NCBI RefSeq assembly: GCF_000003815.2
Contig: NC_049982.1
Span: forward strand, 29,134,377-29,198,376
Origin: Branchiostoma floridae
Lineage: Eukaryota; Chordata; Leptocardii; Amphioxiformes; Branchiostomatidae
Direction of reading: 5' to 3'
Length of the DNA stretch: 64,000 nt
Position 1 is the stretch's first letter. Each line of letters opens with the position of its first letter. Below, one piece after another: positions 2,063-51,456 of the stretch. Below the pieces are notes generated by a model. That model did not search any database, was not told the DNA's origin, and saw only the letters and a list, made by a program, of their open reading frames with translations. The translations under genes were made by a program, and so were the position numbers.

Positions 2063-2906
2063 TAGGTCTTCCTGATTCGATTCGCAATTTGTGACTGATT
2101 CTTAGTTTTGCGACGGTCGATCTGTTATATGACTGTAGAATAAAGTTCTTTCATTCGTTCAATATCATGACTATCATTTCCGTCGGAACGTTGTCGGGAG
2201 TCCAATGTTGACCACGGCGTTTGACCCCGCTTGGACCACGACGTTCCCCTGTCCTTGTAGCCTAGTCTCACTCACGCTCACGTGACCATCTACAGCAAAC
2301 AGAAAAAAAAACGTTACGTCATCAAGCGTCAAAGCTTTACGCGCACCACCAGTACTGAAGATGTCATAAAAAAGTTTGCACTCACGTGACTATGATGTAA
2401 TTATCGCCCGGCTTGTCGGATGGTTAAACCCTGATGTTACCACCACACCAGATTTGATATATATTAGATAAATTCACACACGCTCTTTTGTTATCCTGAA
2501 GTCATTAATAGTTATTGACACATTATTGAGACAAGATTACCCCAAACCATCTACGCTACAACGGAGCGCTATGTTGTATCGCTGTGTTCATAGCCTAATT
2601 TCCCGGAAATCCGTTGAAAACAATAGAGCAATCCATGCACTGAAATTGTTCCCAAACCCTTACCGTTCAACTCCCGACTTTATCTTTTTAGCGATGCTGG
2701 GATCTTCACATGTATTCCCTTTTCTAGCTACAGAAGTATCATTGTGCTATATATATTTTTCTCAATGTTGCTAGTTATTCTACCGTGTATAGCTGTCGAG
2801 TAATAATAAACTTCATTCGTTCATGTAGGTTTAACCGACCAATATGGCGGCCGTGACGTCACGTGAAAACAAGCCATTCTTGCCATGCATCTGGTACAAA
2901 GTTACC
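2063..2906. other. Intergenic with two AATAAA-type tails
   Basis: Two plus-strand endings of similar form (AATAAAGTTCTTTCATTCGTTC near 2138 and AATAAACTTCATTCGTTC near 2806) look like 3' tails of a repeat family. No coding similarity is recognised between them. Confidence 0.4.
2841..2874. promoter_or_regulatory. YY1 / CRE / E-box cluster
   Basis: AATATGGCGGCC (YY1-like) is followed directly by TGACGTCA (a perfect CRE) overlapping CACGTG (E-box). The group is typical of a CpG-rich promoter, yet it lies just past the 3' end of the minus-strand CARD gene, with no recognised gene starting beside it. Confidence 0.45.
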
Positions 2907-3886
2907 TCAGTCTGTTTTATAGTACGTTAACAAACCTTTCCGAACTTGTTTCCTGTAAATTGTCGGACGTTGGAAGTTGCTAACGTCCGTTTTGTCCAGT
3001 TTGTCGACCAGCCAGGGGTAGTTCTCCTGTAGCGCCTGTCTGAACGTGCTGTAGGCTTGTGGTCCTCTCAGTAGTAACAGGTCCAACATTATCCACACTT
3101 TGTCTCGCCGGGTTGTGCCGGAACACGCTCTTTCTATGTCATCTTCACTGTAACGGTCAGTTCAACATATAATGAAAAAAAAATCTAAAAAAGATCGTTA
3201 ATCACCTTCTGGTCATGAAAATTCATTCACCTCCCTTGACTTATCCTCTTTCAAAGTGTGCAACTAAAACGCCCCCTGCCCTGCGGTTCCCCAAAAAGTT
3301 GCTTGAGGGCCCAAGTTTGCGTCATTTTTTCCCAAGTACAAAAGCTTTCTATTAGACAAAAATCGTTACTATAGTATTTTCGAATACGAGGTACCACAAA
3401 AGAAAATTCCGCTATAGTGCCGCAGCAAGCCGCCAGGGGGAGCAAAACCTAAACATTTCGGTAATAGGGCAAAAACCAACTGCATGTCAAATTTCATGGT
3501 AATGCATTTATATAACAGAAAGTATAACTTCTAAAGTTACAACTTACATAGATACAAACAAGCATACGAATTCTAATAAGATTATAACCTTTTCGACAAA
3601 GATAGAAAAAGGACTGACACATACATTTGAATTTGATTGAAGATGTAATGATAACATTCAACAAAGACTTAGTATTGTCTGTATTGTAACATTGCCCACA
3701 CCATGCTACATAGTGCATTGATGGGGAGAATCGCTAGGTGTCGTATCTAAGCGGTTACTGAATGATTGTTACTGCTCACCTGAAGATGCCCTCTTGGTAC
3801 AGATAATGGATGACGTTATGTACATTAAGAGAGTCCAAGAGGTCGATCCGGTTACGAAGAAGACGTTCTCTATCCGTGGCGTCCAT
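2907..3886 (-). CDS. CARD-only protein, CRADD/RAIDD-like (two exons)
   Basis: Exon 1 is 3780-3886 and exon 2 is 2907-3147. The donor reads CTTCAG|GTGAGC and the acceptor GTTACAG|TGAAG. Together they make 348 nt, a 115-residue protein starting MDATDRERLLRNRIDLLD. Almost the whole protein is one CARD, a six-helix homotypic interaction domain of apoptosis and inflammation adaptors. Signature stretches are IHYLYQEGIFSEDDIE, RACSGTTRRDK and LRGPQAYSTFRQAL, then PWLVDKLDK. These resemble the CRADD CARD (YLYQEG, RGP.A..TF, PW..KL.K) and also caspase-9. CRADD normally adds a death domain, and none is seen here. A weak alternative donor (AAAG|GTTTGT, phase 1, near 2930) could lead to further exons outside the window. 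The likely role is a cytosolic CARD adaptor or decoy, an inference from domain content. Confidence 0.8.
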
Positions 3887-7832: not shown

Positions 7833-8005
7833 CTATTTTTTAGGATTAGGTGGTTTCCTGATAGCCCCCCTCCCCACAGGTTTAGGCGGAGGGACGTTGG
7901 TGTATCTGTTGATGGTACATCCCGATCCCGTGTTGATGACAATATTTCCCGAGCCACGGACGATGGAGGTGTTGCAAACCTGCATGGTGTTGGCCGTACT
8001 TCGAG
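7833..8005 (-). CDS. 3' exon with RHIM-like amyloid motif (CARD gene 2)
   Basis: A strong acceptor (CTCTTTTCCATGCAG, minus strand) opens an exon of 2 nt plus 56 codons ending in TAG. The peptide runs RSTANTMQVCNTSIVRGSGN, then IVINTGSGCTINRYTNVPPP, then a basic Pro-rich tail ending NPKK. The core IVRGSGNIV fits the G-x-x-N-x-hydrophobic half of the RHIM consensus, and NTGSGCTIN forms a second pseudo-repeat, as in beta-solenoid amyloid motifs. The exon's phase (needs 1 nt from upstream) matches the donor of the CARD exon at 12672-13029. The joined protein would be 176 residues: CARD, Ser-rich linker, motif. Known biology: RHIM and HET-s-type motifs seed signalling amyloids. That function here is inferred. 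The exon could instead belong to another unseen transcript. Confidence 0.55.
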
Positions 8006-9040
8006 CTGCATGGAAAAGAGGATATTGTAATTTGTATACGTATCTATCTAGGTAGTCACAGACATCCTAATAAGAGCTTACCCCCTGAGGAGTTGCCAAA
8101 CAAGAGCTTCTGAAAAAAGCTAGTCTTTCGCTTACTTATATTGTGTAGGTAAAATTGTTTGGCATAGTTTGGTCAAGCGTGGGTGCCAAGTCTGCAACGT
8201 TGGCAGCTCTGGCACAGTTTGGTCAAGTGCTAGGTTATATAACTGTTTAGTAAGGTAGTGGTTCTCACAGAGTATATTTTACTAGAACTGTATAATAACA
8301 CAACTGCATGAATGATGTTAACTTTATTCGGATTGTTTCGCTGTTAAGAACGGCTCTGTTACAGTACAACAGGGTTTTATGAAAGTGCACTGTAGTAATC
8401 AAATTTATCAGTAGATGTGTCCTGAATTTCTGCAAGAACAAACAAAGTATTGTCACCATAAACAACTGAACATAAAATATTAACATGGCATATACAGTAA
8501 TGGAAATATTTTTTTTAATGGCAAGATCATGTGAAAGGTAGATATTTTAAACTAAAACAGGTCCGTGGTATGTTTAATGGAACGTTTCGTTTCTTTTAGT
8601 AACGCAATTATGCTTTTACTTGACGGAGTCGTGACGTCACGCGTCAGACTCACTCCGTCGAGCTCGGTCAGAATCTTCCCTTTCGAAATTATAAATTAAA
8701 TGTGGGTAATTCTATTTTTAACGCATCCGAGGGCTACTATTTTGCTGAAAGAAGTTTGTTACACGAAAATAGCCTGAAATTTCTTAGAGTAAGAAATTTC
8801 CGAATACGCCCCCCTCCCACACCATGTCAGATGCGGCGCACGCATCTTACACAATTCTAGATTTTGTAGCGGTGATTTTCCATAAAACAAAGTAAATGAC
8901 ATGTCAAACTGTTCTCTACAAGGTCTGTTTTATTATAACCAAACAGCGAACATGTTAGTTTATAAATTGTATACAATCTTACGAAGAAATCCTCACCGTT
9001 CACATCCGTCTCTGCAAATTCCTGCTTATAAGCCATACAG

Positions 9041-9246
9041 AAACCAAGCAGCACATTCATGGTAGGCCGATACGTATGTCATAACGTTACATACCGTCGA
9101 ATCTGCAGGGTAGAATATCTCGCTAGCACGATATGGCATGGACCGCAAACCAAGCAGCACATTCATGGTAGGCCGATACGTATGTCATAACGTTACATAC
9201 CGTCGAATCTGCAGGGTAGAATATCTCGCTAGCACGGTATGGCATG
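9041..9246. repeat. Tandem duplication of about 106 bp
   Basis: The block starting AAACCAAGCAGCACATTCAT at 9041 recurs at 9147 with very few changes (ACGATATGG versus ACGGTATGG). It is followed by a (GGAC)n microsatellite at about 9253-9283 and a small GC-rich hairpin (CGCCGCGGAAGCGCGGCG). Confidence 0.75.
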
Positions 9247-9578
9247 GTCGACCCGGACGGACGGACGGACGGACAGACGGACAGAAATCTAATATCGGTC
9301 TGATTGCCTTTCGCCGCGGAAGCGCGGCGAAAGACAAAAAATTTAATTTAATTTTCATCATGGAGCATGAGCATAGGAACTTCCTGTCAATAGTGAAAAA
9401 AAGATTTATAGATCATCCCCAAAGATTTGTCCCCAAAGATTCTTCTTGTTCAGAGCATCCTGTCAATAGTGCCAGTTATATAAGTCTTTATTGCAAATTA
9501 TCATATAGCCAGGCGCCGCGGACCAATCAGAAGGCCCCGTTCCACGTTGGTTATGACGCCGTAACACGTAGATTCAGN

Positions 9579-9677
9579 NNNNNNNNNNNNNNNNNNNNNN
9601 NNNNNNNNNNNNNNNNNNNNNNNNNNNNNNNNNNNNNNNNNNNNNNNNNNNNNNNNNNNNNNNNNNNNNNNNNNNNN
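9579..9677. other. Assembly gap (N)
   Basis: Run of about 100 N inside the intron of CARD gene 2. The true length is unknown. Confidence 0.95.
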
Positions 9678-10496
9678 TGAAGTTGTTGAGACGCTACCTT
9701 TTTTTGTCTCAGATGGCCCATGCACATGTAGTTACTCTGTCACATGATATACTAATATCTTCCTATTTCAATGTACTGACCTAATGCAGCTGCTAAGTCT
9801 CCTTGGTTTGTGTTCTTCCAATGATATTCATTAAAGATTTATTTCTGGGGTGTTATTCACTTGACATCGGAATGTTACTTGTATAATTTGACCAATGATA
9901 CTTTTATCTGTAGTTCCATAGACATTAGACAATATGAATAGTGGTAGCCCCCATGCAGCAGCAACAGTTAGTCCCCAGGGTGGTATGATGGCAAGCTGCT
10001 GGCAATGTAGCCTGATTAAATCTCGCTTATAGCAGCCCGCCAAACATCCGCCGGCCCGCGGGGAGGGGCCAGTTACAGCCCTGGACAGCGGAGTTTGTGT
10101 TACACAGACTACTGGCAATGGAAGCTTTGAAAAGTTCAGAAGCTGTTGTAGTCAGAGCAAACACCCAGCAAACATCCCCGCAAACCAATGAGCAGTTGCT
10201 TAGAAGGGGAATTTCATCATATATTTGCCGCGACAAAATGCAACCAACGATACTGAATTTAAAACAGAACAAAGCTAAGCCTCCACCACTTAACCCTGCC
10301 TGTACCATAGATTAAGCAGGCCCAAAAACCAAGCGAATATGACTAGCCCAAAACAACAAATTACCTGTATACAGTATGGAAATGGCATTACCAAAGAAAC
10401 AAAAAGAAACACAGGACAAATCATACACATACCTTTCTCTTATGCCCACACTCTATACAGTTCTCCTCCACATTAGAAAATTGCATCTTCTTCTGT

Positions 10497-11440
10497 TTAA
10501 GTTCAAGTTCAACCATGATTGCCAACAGGGTAAAGGAACTTGTACCGAAACTTAAAACTCAGTACTATACAGCTCTAGAAACACCACAAAGAGTAATAAG
10601 CAAACTCCAATTATACCTGACCAACAGATATATAATCTTGTACACTCCCGTCATCTGGAAAACTGTCAGTGCCACTAAGTAACCTGATACATTGAAGGTG
10701 GCCCAGGCCAGATGATGGTTCTACACCCAACCATAATCTGTTTTTAAAACCAAGCAGATATTGGGAGGATGCCCCAACCACACAAAAACAGGATCAACCT
10801 ATACAGTATCAAGTTCAAGCACTAGGAGGCCCCAAATCAAACCTGACCACCAGGACACCACAAACAACTCACGTACCAAATAGCAACACAATGGTACCTT
10901 GCGTTCCGGAGATACAGCGCACGCCCCGTGCCCGCACAAAAGGTAACCTAAAATGTCAAGTTCAAGCACCAAGGGCGCCAAAATCAAAATTGAGCATTAT
11001 TCAGCCACCGCCGACACATGTGCCAAATATCATCGCGCCAGCACCAGCCGTTCAGAAGATATAACTCCGGAAACAACCCTCTCGGACACAAAATTCGACC
11101 TGCCGGGTCAAGTTCAAACGCGACAAGGCCCAAAGTCAATCCTAGGCAACAGGCAACAACCCCCCACCCATGCACCAAAAATCGTCGCAATCGCGCGTAT
11201 CGTTCCGGACACACAGCGCCAAAAGTGCCCCCAAAACACCAAAAATGCCACCTGCAATGTCAAGTTCAAACGCCAGGAGGCCCAAAATCAAACCTGAGTG
11301 TTAGGCTACCACCCCCAACCCACGTACCAAAAATCGTCGTGCTCGCACCATCCGTTCACGAGATACAGCGCCCTACATCCCCGGCTACCGAAAAGTTCCC
11401 ACCAGCATCAAAACCATACCTGCATACATGCAGGTAATAA
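10497..11440. repeat. Degenerate tandem monomers of about 150 bp
   Basis: The phrase CAAGTTCAA recurs at 10810, 10957, 11109 and 11261 (spacing 147, 152, 152), each time followed by an AGG..CCCAAA(A)TCAA phrase, a CAC.TACCAAA phrase and a GAGATACAGCG phrase. The reverse complement contains the same phrase order as the repeat at about 38680-39120 (ATGATATTTGGTACGTGG, then GATTTTGGGCC-like). Long open frames here come from base composition and are not taken as genes. Confidence 0.6.
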
Positions 11441-11444
11441 CGTC

Positions 11445-11860
11445 TAAACTAAATCTATAAGCTATTTGATGGGTTTGACTTCTTTTCCGTATGCAGTAGG
11501 AGATGAATTGTCCAGTATTTTCATATATATCTAAGGGTTGGACGACTTATGCAAGAAGATTGATTTTTGTTGGTCGGTAAGGTGATAAAAGCTTGGGAAA
11601 GTTTTGCAGATTTTAAGGAAAAGTTTGTTTCTTTCGGAACTGTAGTGTGAACATTGACAAATGAAATGTAGTTCATCTTCCTGTGACTGCTTTCTCTGAA
11701 CAGTATTTACACCTTCTCTCCTCAACGGACAGTTTTTTGTACCTGCCCCTCTCTATTTCTAGTGAATAAACACTTATCCTCATTCTACATAAAGCGGATC
11801 TTAGCTCAAAATCTGTATGGTATAGGTAACTCTCCATACTGTACTCAGATTTAAGTTATA
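11445..11860 (-). mobile_element. LINE ORF2 C-terminal fragment
   Basis: Minus-strand frames read LEIERGRYKKLSVEERRCKY, C, SEK, then in another frame EDELHFICQCSHYSSERNK. This is the conserved C-terminal zinc-knuckle region of lancelet-type non-LTR retrotransposons. One frame change separates the two parts. It is 5'-truncated and lies in the intron of CARD gene 2. Confidence 0.65.
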
Positions 11861-12091
11861 TGTTATGGACAAGATCGTCCTACTGATTGTGCCAAAGCAA
11901 AGAAATTCTTATTTTGTATATATCCTGTCAATGGCTGATTATTTATTGTTGAAAGGAAAATCAATTAAATACAATAGCGAAAAAGTATTTTAGTTTTAGT
12001 ATGTCCCTGAGATACCTGGGCATCAAATGGAGGTCTCATTATTGAGAACAGCCACACTTTGATTTGTTTAAATATGTTCAAGAACCCCCCA

Positions 12092-12378
12092 TGCACCATT
12101 ATCTAAAAGAGTGGGGGTCTTTCCCGGTGTGAGCGCACATCAATCAAATAAGTCTATCTGGATAACCAGCTTGTATGGTTCAGTACAAACCTGATGTGTG
12201 TCATGCCAGAAGGTGGTTTACCTGGTATTTTGTTTGTTTGTTAAATGCATGTCGGTCAACCGCCTTAAGGCGTAACACACTAGGTTTGTACTGAACAGTA
12301 CAAGCTGTATATTCGGACAGATTTATCTGATCCACTTACACTGGGAAGGACCCCTACTCTTTTCGATAAGTGTGATGG
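12092..12378. repeat. Foldback element with arms of about 100 bp
   Basis: The left arm (AAAAGAGTGGGGGTC, TTTCCC, TTCAGTACAAACCT) is the approximate reverse complement of the right arm ending GACCCCTACTCTTTTCG. The arms are separated by about 60 bases. It looks like a MITE, but no clear target duplication is seen. Confidence 0.6.
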
Positions 12379-12399
12379 GCTCAACATGCCTGAAGTGAA

Positions 12400-12612
12400 C
12401 TCTCCTCAAACACCGGACCGCCATTAAACGTCCTATCCAAGGGAAGACCCTAACCAAACCTTAGGTACTCATTTTCACTTGAGTGAAGTGTGGAAAGTCG
12501 TGTAAAGTGTCTTTCCCAAGGGCACAAGATTGGTGGCACATCGACGGATTCGAACCAAGGACCTCAGGGTTGTGAATCAAACACCCTGCCAATTGCGCCA
12601 CACGACCCCACA
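12400..12612 (-). mobile_element. tRNA-derived SINE
   Basis: On the minus strand a tRNA-like head has an A box (TGGCGCAATTGGCAG) and a B box (GGTTCGAATCC). It is followed by a body containing CCCTTGGGAAAGACACTTTA and a T/G-rich end. No full acceptor stem or CCA-end structure of a true tRNA gene is present, so it is a SINE and not a tRNA. A CAAA-rich microsatellite (12630-12662) borders it. Confidence 0.7.
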
Positions 12613-12671
12613 TTTTTGGATATGCAATACAAACAAACAAACAAACAAGTAAACAAACAAACAATACATAC

Positions 12672-13029
12672 TGGTAAATGTTGTCACTCCTGATGCCCCT
12701 CCTTGTGTTGATGATGATGATGACTTTTTCGGGTCTACATCACTAACGTCCGTCTTCTCCAACAGTTCAACTAGCTCATCATAAACTTTCACTTTCTGAT
12801 CCTTCAAGGCGCCCACAAAATGTCCGTAAGCGCCTTCCCCTCTCCTGGGCAGCATGGTAAGGAGTTGAAAGTTCTTATCTCTGGTTGTCGTTCTGGCTTC
12901 TATTCTTTCCAAGTCATCTATGGAGAGAACCTCCTTTTCGAAAAGGTAGTGGATGAGGTGGGGTGATTCTATATTGTCCAGGAGTTTGGTGTGGTTTTTC
13001 CGAAGGCGTGCCTGGTCGTAGGGATCCAT
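12672..13029 (-). CDS. CARD domain exon, 5' part of CARD gene 2
   Basis: The ATG at 13029 opens a 119-codon exon plus 1 nt. Residues 1-95 form a CARD (MDPYDQARLRKNHTKLLDNI, HLIHYLFEKEVLSIDDLERI, TTTRDKNFQLLTMLPRRGEG, AYGHFVGAL), closest in feel to CRADD, followed by the linker KKSSSSSTQGGASG. The frame runs on into CA repeats and the SINE, so it must be spliced before that. TTTACCA|GTATGT gives a donor leaving phase 1, which fits the acceptor at 8005. The first CARD gene (2907-3886) shares the phrase KTDVS after its last helix but has an intron inside the CARD that this gene lacks. The protein should be a cytosolic death-fold adaptor. Whether the intron really spans 4.7 kb needs transcripts. 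Confidence 0.7.
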
Positions 13030-51356: not shown

Positions 51357-51456
51357 NNNNNNNNNNNNNNNNNNNNNNNNNNNNNNNNNNNNNNNNNNNN
51401 NNNNNNNNNNNNNNNNNNNNNNNNNNNNNNNNNNNNNNNNNNNNNNNNNNNNNNNN
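51357..51456. other. Assembly gap (N)
   Basis: 100 N, probably a placeholder of unknown true size. The missing first exon of gene F would be expected here. Confidence 0.95.

Follow-up and report, generated by a model that had tools for sequence, protein, structure and literature searches.

A short motif shared by two tandem CARD genes and NLR genes of a lancelet, a candidate for homotypic coupling

Two tandem paralogous genes of the lancelet Branchiostoma floridae are predicted to encode small proteins in which a CARD is followed by a short C-terminal motif, and the same motif is found upstream of NACHT in NLR genes. Both genes, called A and B here, lie in the window, that is, the whole stretch of 64,000 nucleotides that was analysed (C4:29134377-29198376 of the 513 Mb host assembly). 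The chances seem about even that A and B are ASC-like adaptors in which the motif couples an NLR to a CARD protein homotypically, probably as an amyloid-like stack. The two genes consist of the following features.

12672..13029, minus strand: gene A exon 1, with the start codon and the CARD, ending in phase 1 (Pfam PF00619, E 6e-15; open frame once joined)
8006..12671, minus strand: gene A intron, GT..AG, 4,666 bases, including a 100-N gap at 9578-9677
7833..8005, minus strand: gene A exon 2, encoding the 56-aa C-terminal tail up to the stop codon
7899..7979, minus strand: gene A tail motif, VCNTSIVRGSGNIVINTGSGCTINRYT (E 8e-6 and 2e-7 with profiles from outside the window that contain neither A nor B)
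3780..3886, minus strand: gene B exon 1, with the start codon and the first part of the CARD, aligned to the CARD of gene A
2936..3147, minus strand: gene B exon 2, remainder of the CARD, ending in phase 1 with the donor GTTTGT (the frame 2907-3161 matches Pfam CARD with E 1.5e-10)
2174..2289, minus strand: gene B exon 3, encoding the C-terminal tail up to the stop codon
2198..2278, minus strand: gene B tail motif, SVSETRLQGQGNVVVQAGSNAVVNIGL (E 1e-6 and 4e-5 with profiles from outside the window that contain neither A nor B)

The CARD exon of gene A scores 55.4 bits against a Pfam cut-off of 23.9, and CARD models are the only ones that it matches. It ends in phase 1 with the donor ACC A/GTATGT, and the second exon, preceded by a pyrimidine-rich acceptor (TCTTTTCCATGCAG), is entered in phase 1. 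Joined, 13029-12672 and 8005-7833 give 176 codons without a stop. The preliminary description had proposed this join from a phase-1 end at 12672 and a complementary entry at 8005, split over an intron of 4.7 kb, and had pointed to IVRGSGNIV and NTGSGCTIN in the tail; the donor, the acceptor, the open frame and the intron length bear it out, both peptides are present, and the observation of a CARD exon and a tail exon is confirmed as real. By eye, the intron also contains a tRNA-like, SINE-looking stretch at 12520-12610, where ARAGORN finds no tRNA, and two near-identical tandem copies of ~110 bases at ~9040-9270. A second assembly gap of 100 Ns lies at 51357-51456 in the window, and the minus strand between 15302 and 62226 carries an array of BTB-Kelch-like frames, several of ~570-620 aa (the first identified by Pfam, the others by eye).

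Gene B (3886-2174), absent from the preliminary description, lies ~3.9 kb beyond gene A on the same strand. It encodes 144 aa and has the same architecture: a CARD, a last intron in phase 1 and a tail. The frame of its second exon scores 41.4 bits with the Pfam CARD model, and a blastp comparison of A with B (E 1e-23) produces an alignment that spans both the CARD and the tail. The tails align with a score of 49, which is reached by 5 of 20,000 shuffled versions of tail B and by 1 of 20,000 of tail A. Among 1,837 candidate phase-1 terminal exons from both strands of the window, the two tails are mutual best matches, self-matches and nested frames aside. Because the join of CARD and tail recurs in a paralogue, gene B is the best available stand-in for a cDNA. 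The order of the exons of gene A across the gap at 9578-9677 does rest on the assembly, since the gap lies within the intron, and it might be argued that the CARD and the tail belong to different genes or were wrongly joined owing to the gap. This is very improbable, as neighbouring gene B repeats the order of CARD, phase-1 intron and tail with no gap in its sequence. The predicted model of gene A is thus supported by its frame, its splice sites and its paralogue.

The motif is ~25 residues long. Two profiles were built from copies outside the window. The first contains the copies on C219, C4 and C5, which were reached from tail B and not from tail A, and is independent of A. The second contains the C1 copy and two NLR copies, which were reached first from tail A, and is largely independent of B, the independence being partial in that C1 was later matched by B too. 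With each of them the two tails take the top two ranks among 2,137 window peptides (first profile: A 8e-6, B 4e-5; second profile: A 2e-7, B 1e-6), and the next best peptides have E-values of 0.034 and 1.1. With a profile of two NLR copies alone, the tails again occupy ranks one and two, here among 2,481 peptides, at E 0.003 and 0.011. The C8 copy escapes this profile at E 1, and is recovered by a profile of six other copies (8e-5) and by one of A and B alone (0.011). The consensus of eight aligned copies is [NS]-x-[ST]-x-[VIL]-x-G-x-G-N-x-x-x-[NQST]-x-G-x-x-x-x-[IV], with the core columns G, G, N and G invariant in all eight despite very different flanks, and the 18-residue core of each copy holds 0-2 charges. 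Such a Gly/Asn-rich core with few charges would suit cross-beta stacking. The preliminary description had seen two pseudo-repeats in the tail. As an internal repeat these do not stand up: across seven copies the best offsets, 8 and 9, have p-values of 0.045 and 0.048 taken singly and 0.42 after correction for the number of offsets.

No Pfam family is found on either tail exon, and NCBIfam gives one match at chance level. The PDB matches are either weak or due to composition. Tail A matches an antibody (E 0.07) and a succinyltransferase (E 1.5), and tail B matches haemoglobins and Putidacin L1 (E 0.0097, where no stretch passes singly).

The genome was searched with six motif copies as queries, keeping all matches with E up to 10. 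Tail A has six matches: itself, three sites on C11, one on C10 and one on C1; as a single query it thus leads to NLR loci, with E-values of 0.28 to 2.7 at the four NLR sites. Tail B has three (itself, C219 and C1), none of them an NLR site. The NLR copy at L031 has twelve matches, ten on C11 including itself and one each on C10 and C9, with neither tail among them; tail B and this copy do not recover each other as single queries. The C8 copy matches itself, C219 and C1, and again neither tail. The C219 copy has nine matches, including gene B (E 0.42) and one NLR site on C11 (E 3.5), and the C1 copy has sixteen, including A (E 0.13), B (E 0.78) and six NLR sites, five on C10 and C11 plus that on C8. 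Altogether there are 24 distinct copies: the two CARD adaptors, 13 NLR-type sites (ten on C11 and one each on C10, C9 and C8) and nine in a third family (four on C1, one on C4, two on C5 and two on C219). Thirteen of the 24 were read, and eleven (seven on C11, three on C1 and one on C5) are placed by position and frame only.

The motif occurs upstream of NACHT on the four contigs C8, C9, C10 and C11, as read at five loci. NACHT is found downstream in all five loci scanned with Pfam (L031, L033, L034, L039 and L043), a count that excludes L032 and includes L039 (C9) with a divergent copy only. At L031, the motif exon lies between a low-complexity-looking upstream open frame and the NACHT exon, and the splice phases fit (ACA G/GTAGAA, TG ACA ... 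AGC ACA G/GTGAGC, CAG/TG ACC). L043 (C8) is a more divergent NLR whose motif exon is 1-1 in phase by eye, the junction from motif to NACHT itself being unphased. The copy at L039 is weak (E 0.007 in 9,771 peptides). The upstream frame of this locus contains MGQGHSKSQ, which we take to resemble an N-myristoylation signal, and is followed by the divergent motif and then NACHT. Pfam finds no death fold in the upstream open frames of L033 and L034, which need not be first exons; a death-fold exon further upstream is possible in the motif NLRs, as the reading of upstream frames covered few loci.

In A, B, L031 and L043 the motif exon is entered in phase 1, and in the two NLRs it is 1-1. This common phase indicates an exchangeable exon. 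Such a symmetrical exon, with 24 copies, could also be a shuffled exon without any signalling function. This seems improbable, as G, G, N and G are invariant in eight of eight copies within very different flanks, and as the motif has been seen only in NLRs, CARD adaptors and one further class. The module through which an NLR is coupled is usually N-terminal. In these genes that position is taken by a short motif which is also present on a CARD protein, and the most economical interpretation is homotypic coupling. The suggestion in the preliminary description that the tail is a signalling motif is therefore supported, at the level of sequence, by the presence of the same motif before NACHT.

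The third family comprises L036, L038 and L044 (C219), L030 (C1), L041 (C4) and L042 (C5), where the motif is followed by a shared region of ~300 residues. This region is 62% identical between C219 and C1 over 308 residues, and parts of it are seen on C4 and C5. It looks helical and TPR-like by eye; a 327-aa stretch from C1 has no PDB relative at E 0.1, and a 425-aa frame from C1 has no Pfam family at E 1. C219 carries two motif exons, at 580684 and 582451. The former and the C1 motif exon have an apparent phase-0 entry by eye, and, again by eye, neither the 9 kb before the C219 motif nor the 8 kb before the C1 motif shows a clear partner domain. The presence of the motif in this family is not explained by homotypic coupling of NLRs to CARD adaptors, and counts against it. 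It would be accommodated if the motif, being short and modular, were a docking peptide by which the three protein classes bind one common partner, the motifs not assembling with each other. We rate this as unlikely, though to be taken seriously; homotypic pairing accounts better for the position of the motif, ahead of NACHT in the NLRs and across from the CARD in a small protein.

The tail does not appear to be general to lancelet CARD genes, since the motif is found, by pattern or profile, in none of 28 other CARD loci sampled. These represent 27 distinct sites (L004 and L019 share one) from at least 149 genome matches; 20 were covered to ~9.7 kb from the CARD and 8 to only ~1.5 kb on each side, too short for a tail placed as in gene A. 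The closest CARD relatives among the 28, L028 (43% identical to A) and L016-L018 (40% to B), are all without the motif. Further genes joining a CARD to the motif may exist. The preliminary description had called for a search for the same tail in other lancelet proteins; it is thus present in NLR genes and a third family and absent from the sampled CARD loci.

The RHIM label given to the tail in the preliminary description is not supported. The RHIM core tetrad is V/I-Q-V/I-G, as stated in a passage of PMC12119088, which also reports a RHIM in lancelet RIPK1. At the corresponding places the seven copies compared have VNAG, INTG, VQAG, ANAG, INIG, FSAG and VTAG, so that the tetrad is absent from all seven, and membership was rejected on this ground. 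The motif resembles the RHIM of RIPK1, RIPK3, ZBP1 and TRIF in being short, in its setting in death signalling and in a partly similar tetrad, and differs in that the core Q is replaced in six of seven copies and the third position is not V or I in six of seven. Pfam has no match in seven copies (A, B, C1 and four NLR copies, without those on C219, C4 and C5), a scan in which HMMER filters may hide weak matches and which had no RHIM positive control. According to a statement in PMC7885112, fungal PP and RHIM have G-phi-Q-phi-G in common, with flanking N and G. By eye, Q occurs only in gene B among seven copies, and there without a G two places before it, so this core is not present either. It is nevertheless conceivable that the motif is a divergent branch of the superfamily that unites RHIM, fungal PP and bacterial BASS3: an NLR copy has I-N-I-G and gene B V-Q-A-G at the tetrad place, and the core common to PP and RHIM is itself flanked by N and G. 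We consider such a branch quite unlikely, given the missing tetrad and the silence of Pfam in all seven copies scanned, and the likeness may be one of composition. A link between a death fold and amyloid templating, as first proposed, remains the reading that we prefer.

Homotypic coupling would then proceed as follows. Genes A and B would encode small ASC-like adaptors, whose C-terminal motif would bind its counterpart at the N-terminus of one class of NLRs; no death fold is seen at this position in them. Oligomerisation through NACHT would cluster the NLR motifs, which could nucleate those of the adaptors, and the motif would probably assemble as a short cross-beta, amyloid-like stack. The CARDs of the adaptors, thereby concentrated, would polymerise and might recruit CARD caspases or kinases. 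In the broader and more tentative form of this proposal, to which we give somewhat less than an even chance, lancelets have an inflammasome-like relay, in which NLRs that lack a death fold hand the signal on to a CARD adaptor by way of a signalling amyloid other than RHIM, the second such family in animals. What the sequences offer towards the coupling is the shared motif, its place in predicted CARD adaptors and NLR genes, and compatible intron phases. The tandem paralogues, the single-query links from tail A, C219 and C1, NACHT in five of five loci, the upstream frames of L033 and L034 with no death fold, the profile of the NLR pair, the exchangeable phase-1 exon and the low charge count in favour of homotypic coupling. 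Against it count the weak E-values between tails and NLRs in single-query searches, with links missing from the tail B, L031 and C8 queries, the failure of the NLR-pair profile to recover the C8 copy at E 1, and the lack of any Pfam model that fits the motif.

Like ASC (PYCARD), A and B would be small proteins of two modules, one of them the CARD and the other a homotypic module, putative here, for coupling to NLRs. They differ in that the pyrin domain is replaced by the ~25-residue motif and in that the CARD comes first and the motif last; no pyrin domain is seen among the Pfam matches of the tail exons, which have none, or of the CARD exon of gene A, which are to CARD alone. Fungal NLR pairs work by a shared motif, and their genes neighbour each other. 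As in the fungal NWD2/HET-S and PNT1/HELLP pairs, the lancelet motif lies at the N-terminus of an NLR and at the C-terminus of a putative partner. However, the lancelet partner carries a CARD and not a HeLo or HeLo-like domain, the motif sequence is another one, and the genes are not adjacent: the adaptors are on C4 and the motif NLRs on C8, C9, C10 and C11. This separation, unlike the arrangement of the fungal pairs, counts against the proposed coupling.

Passages of PMC11508797 describe amphioxus NLRs as CARD-NACHT or Death-NACHT and state that ASC and PYD are missing in invertebrates; an older paper adds DED-NACHT and TIR-NACHT and, in a passage that also counts against the proposed coupling, suggests that amphioxus NLRs may signal directly and not via an ASC-like hub (PMC2575513). 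Among the open-access literature matches listed, titles and the starts of abstracts mention no such lancelet motif and no CARD protein with such a tail. The reported lack of ASC and PYD in invertebrates speaks for the proposed coupling, and so does a passage of PMC7889193 according to which NWD2/HET-S modules can stand in for the pyrin pair of NLRP3-ASC.

A motif common to NLRs and CARD adaptors can be tested with peptides of ~30 residues. It would explain how some NLRs could signal without a visible effector domain. If the relay through a signalling amyloid is real, animals would have a second family of such amyloids, and lancelets would show in nature what has been achieved experimentally by exchanging pyrin domains for a fungal amyloid pair.
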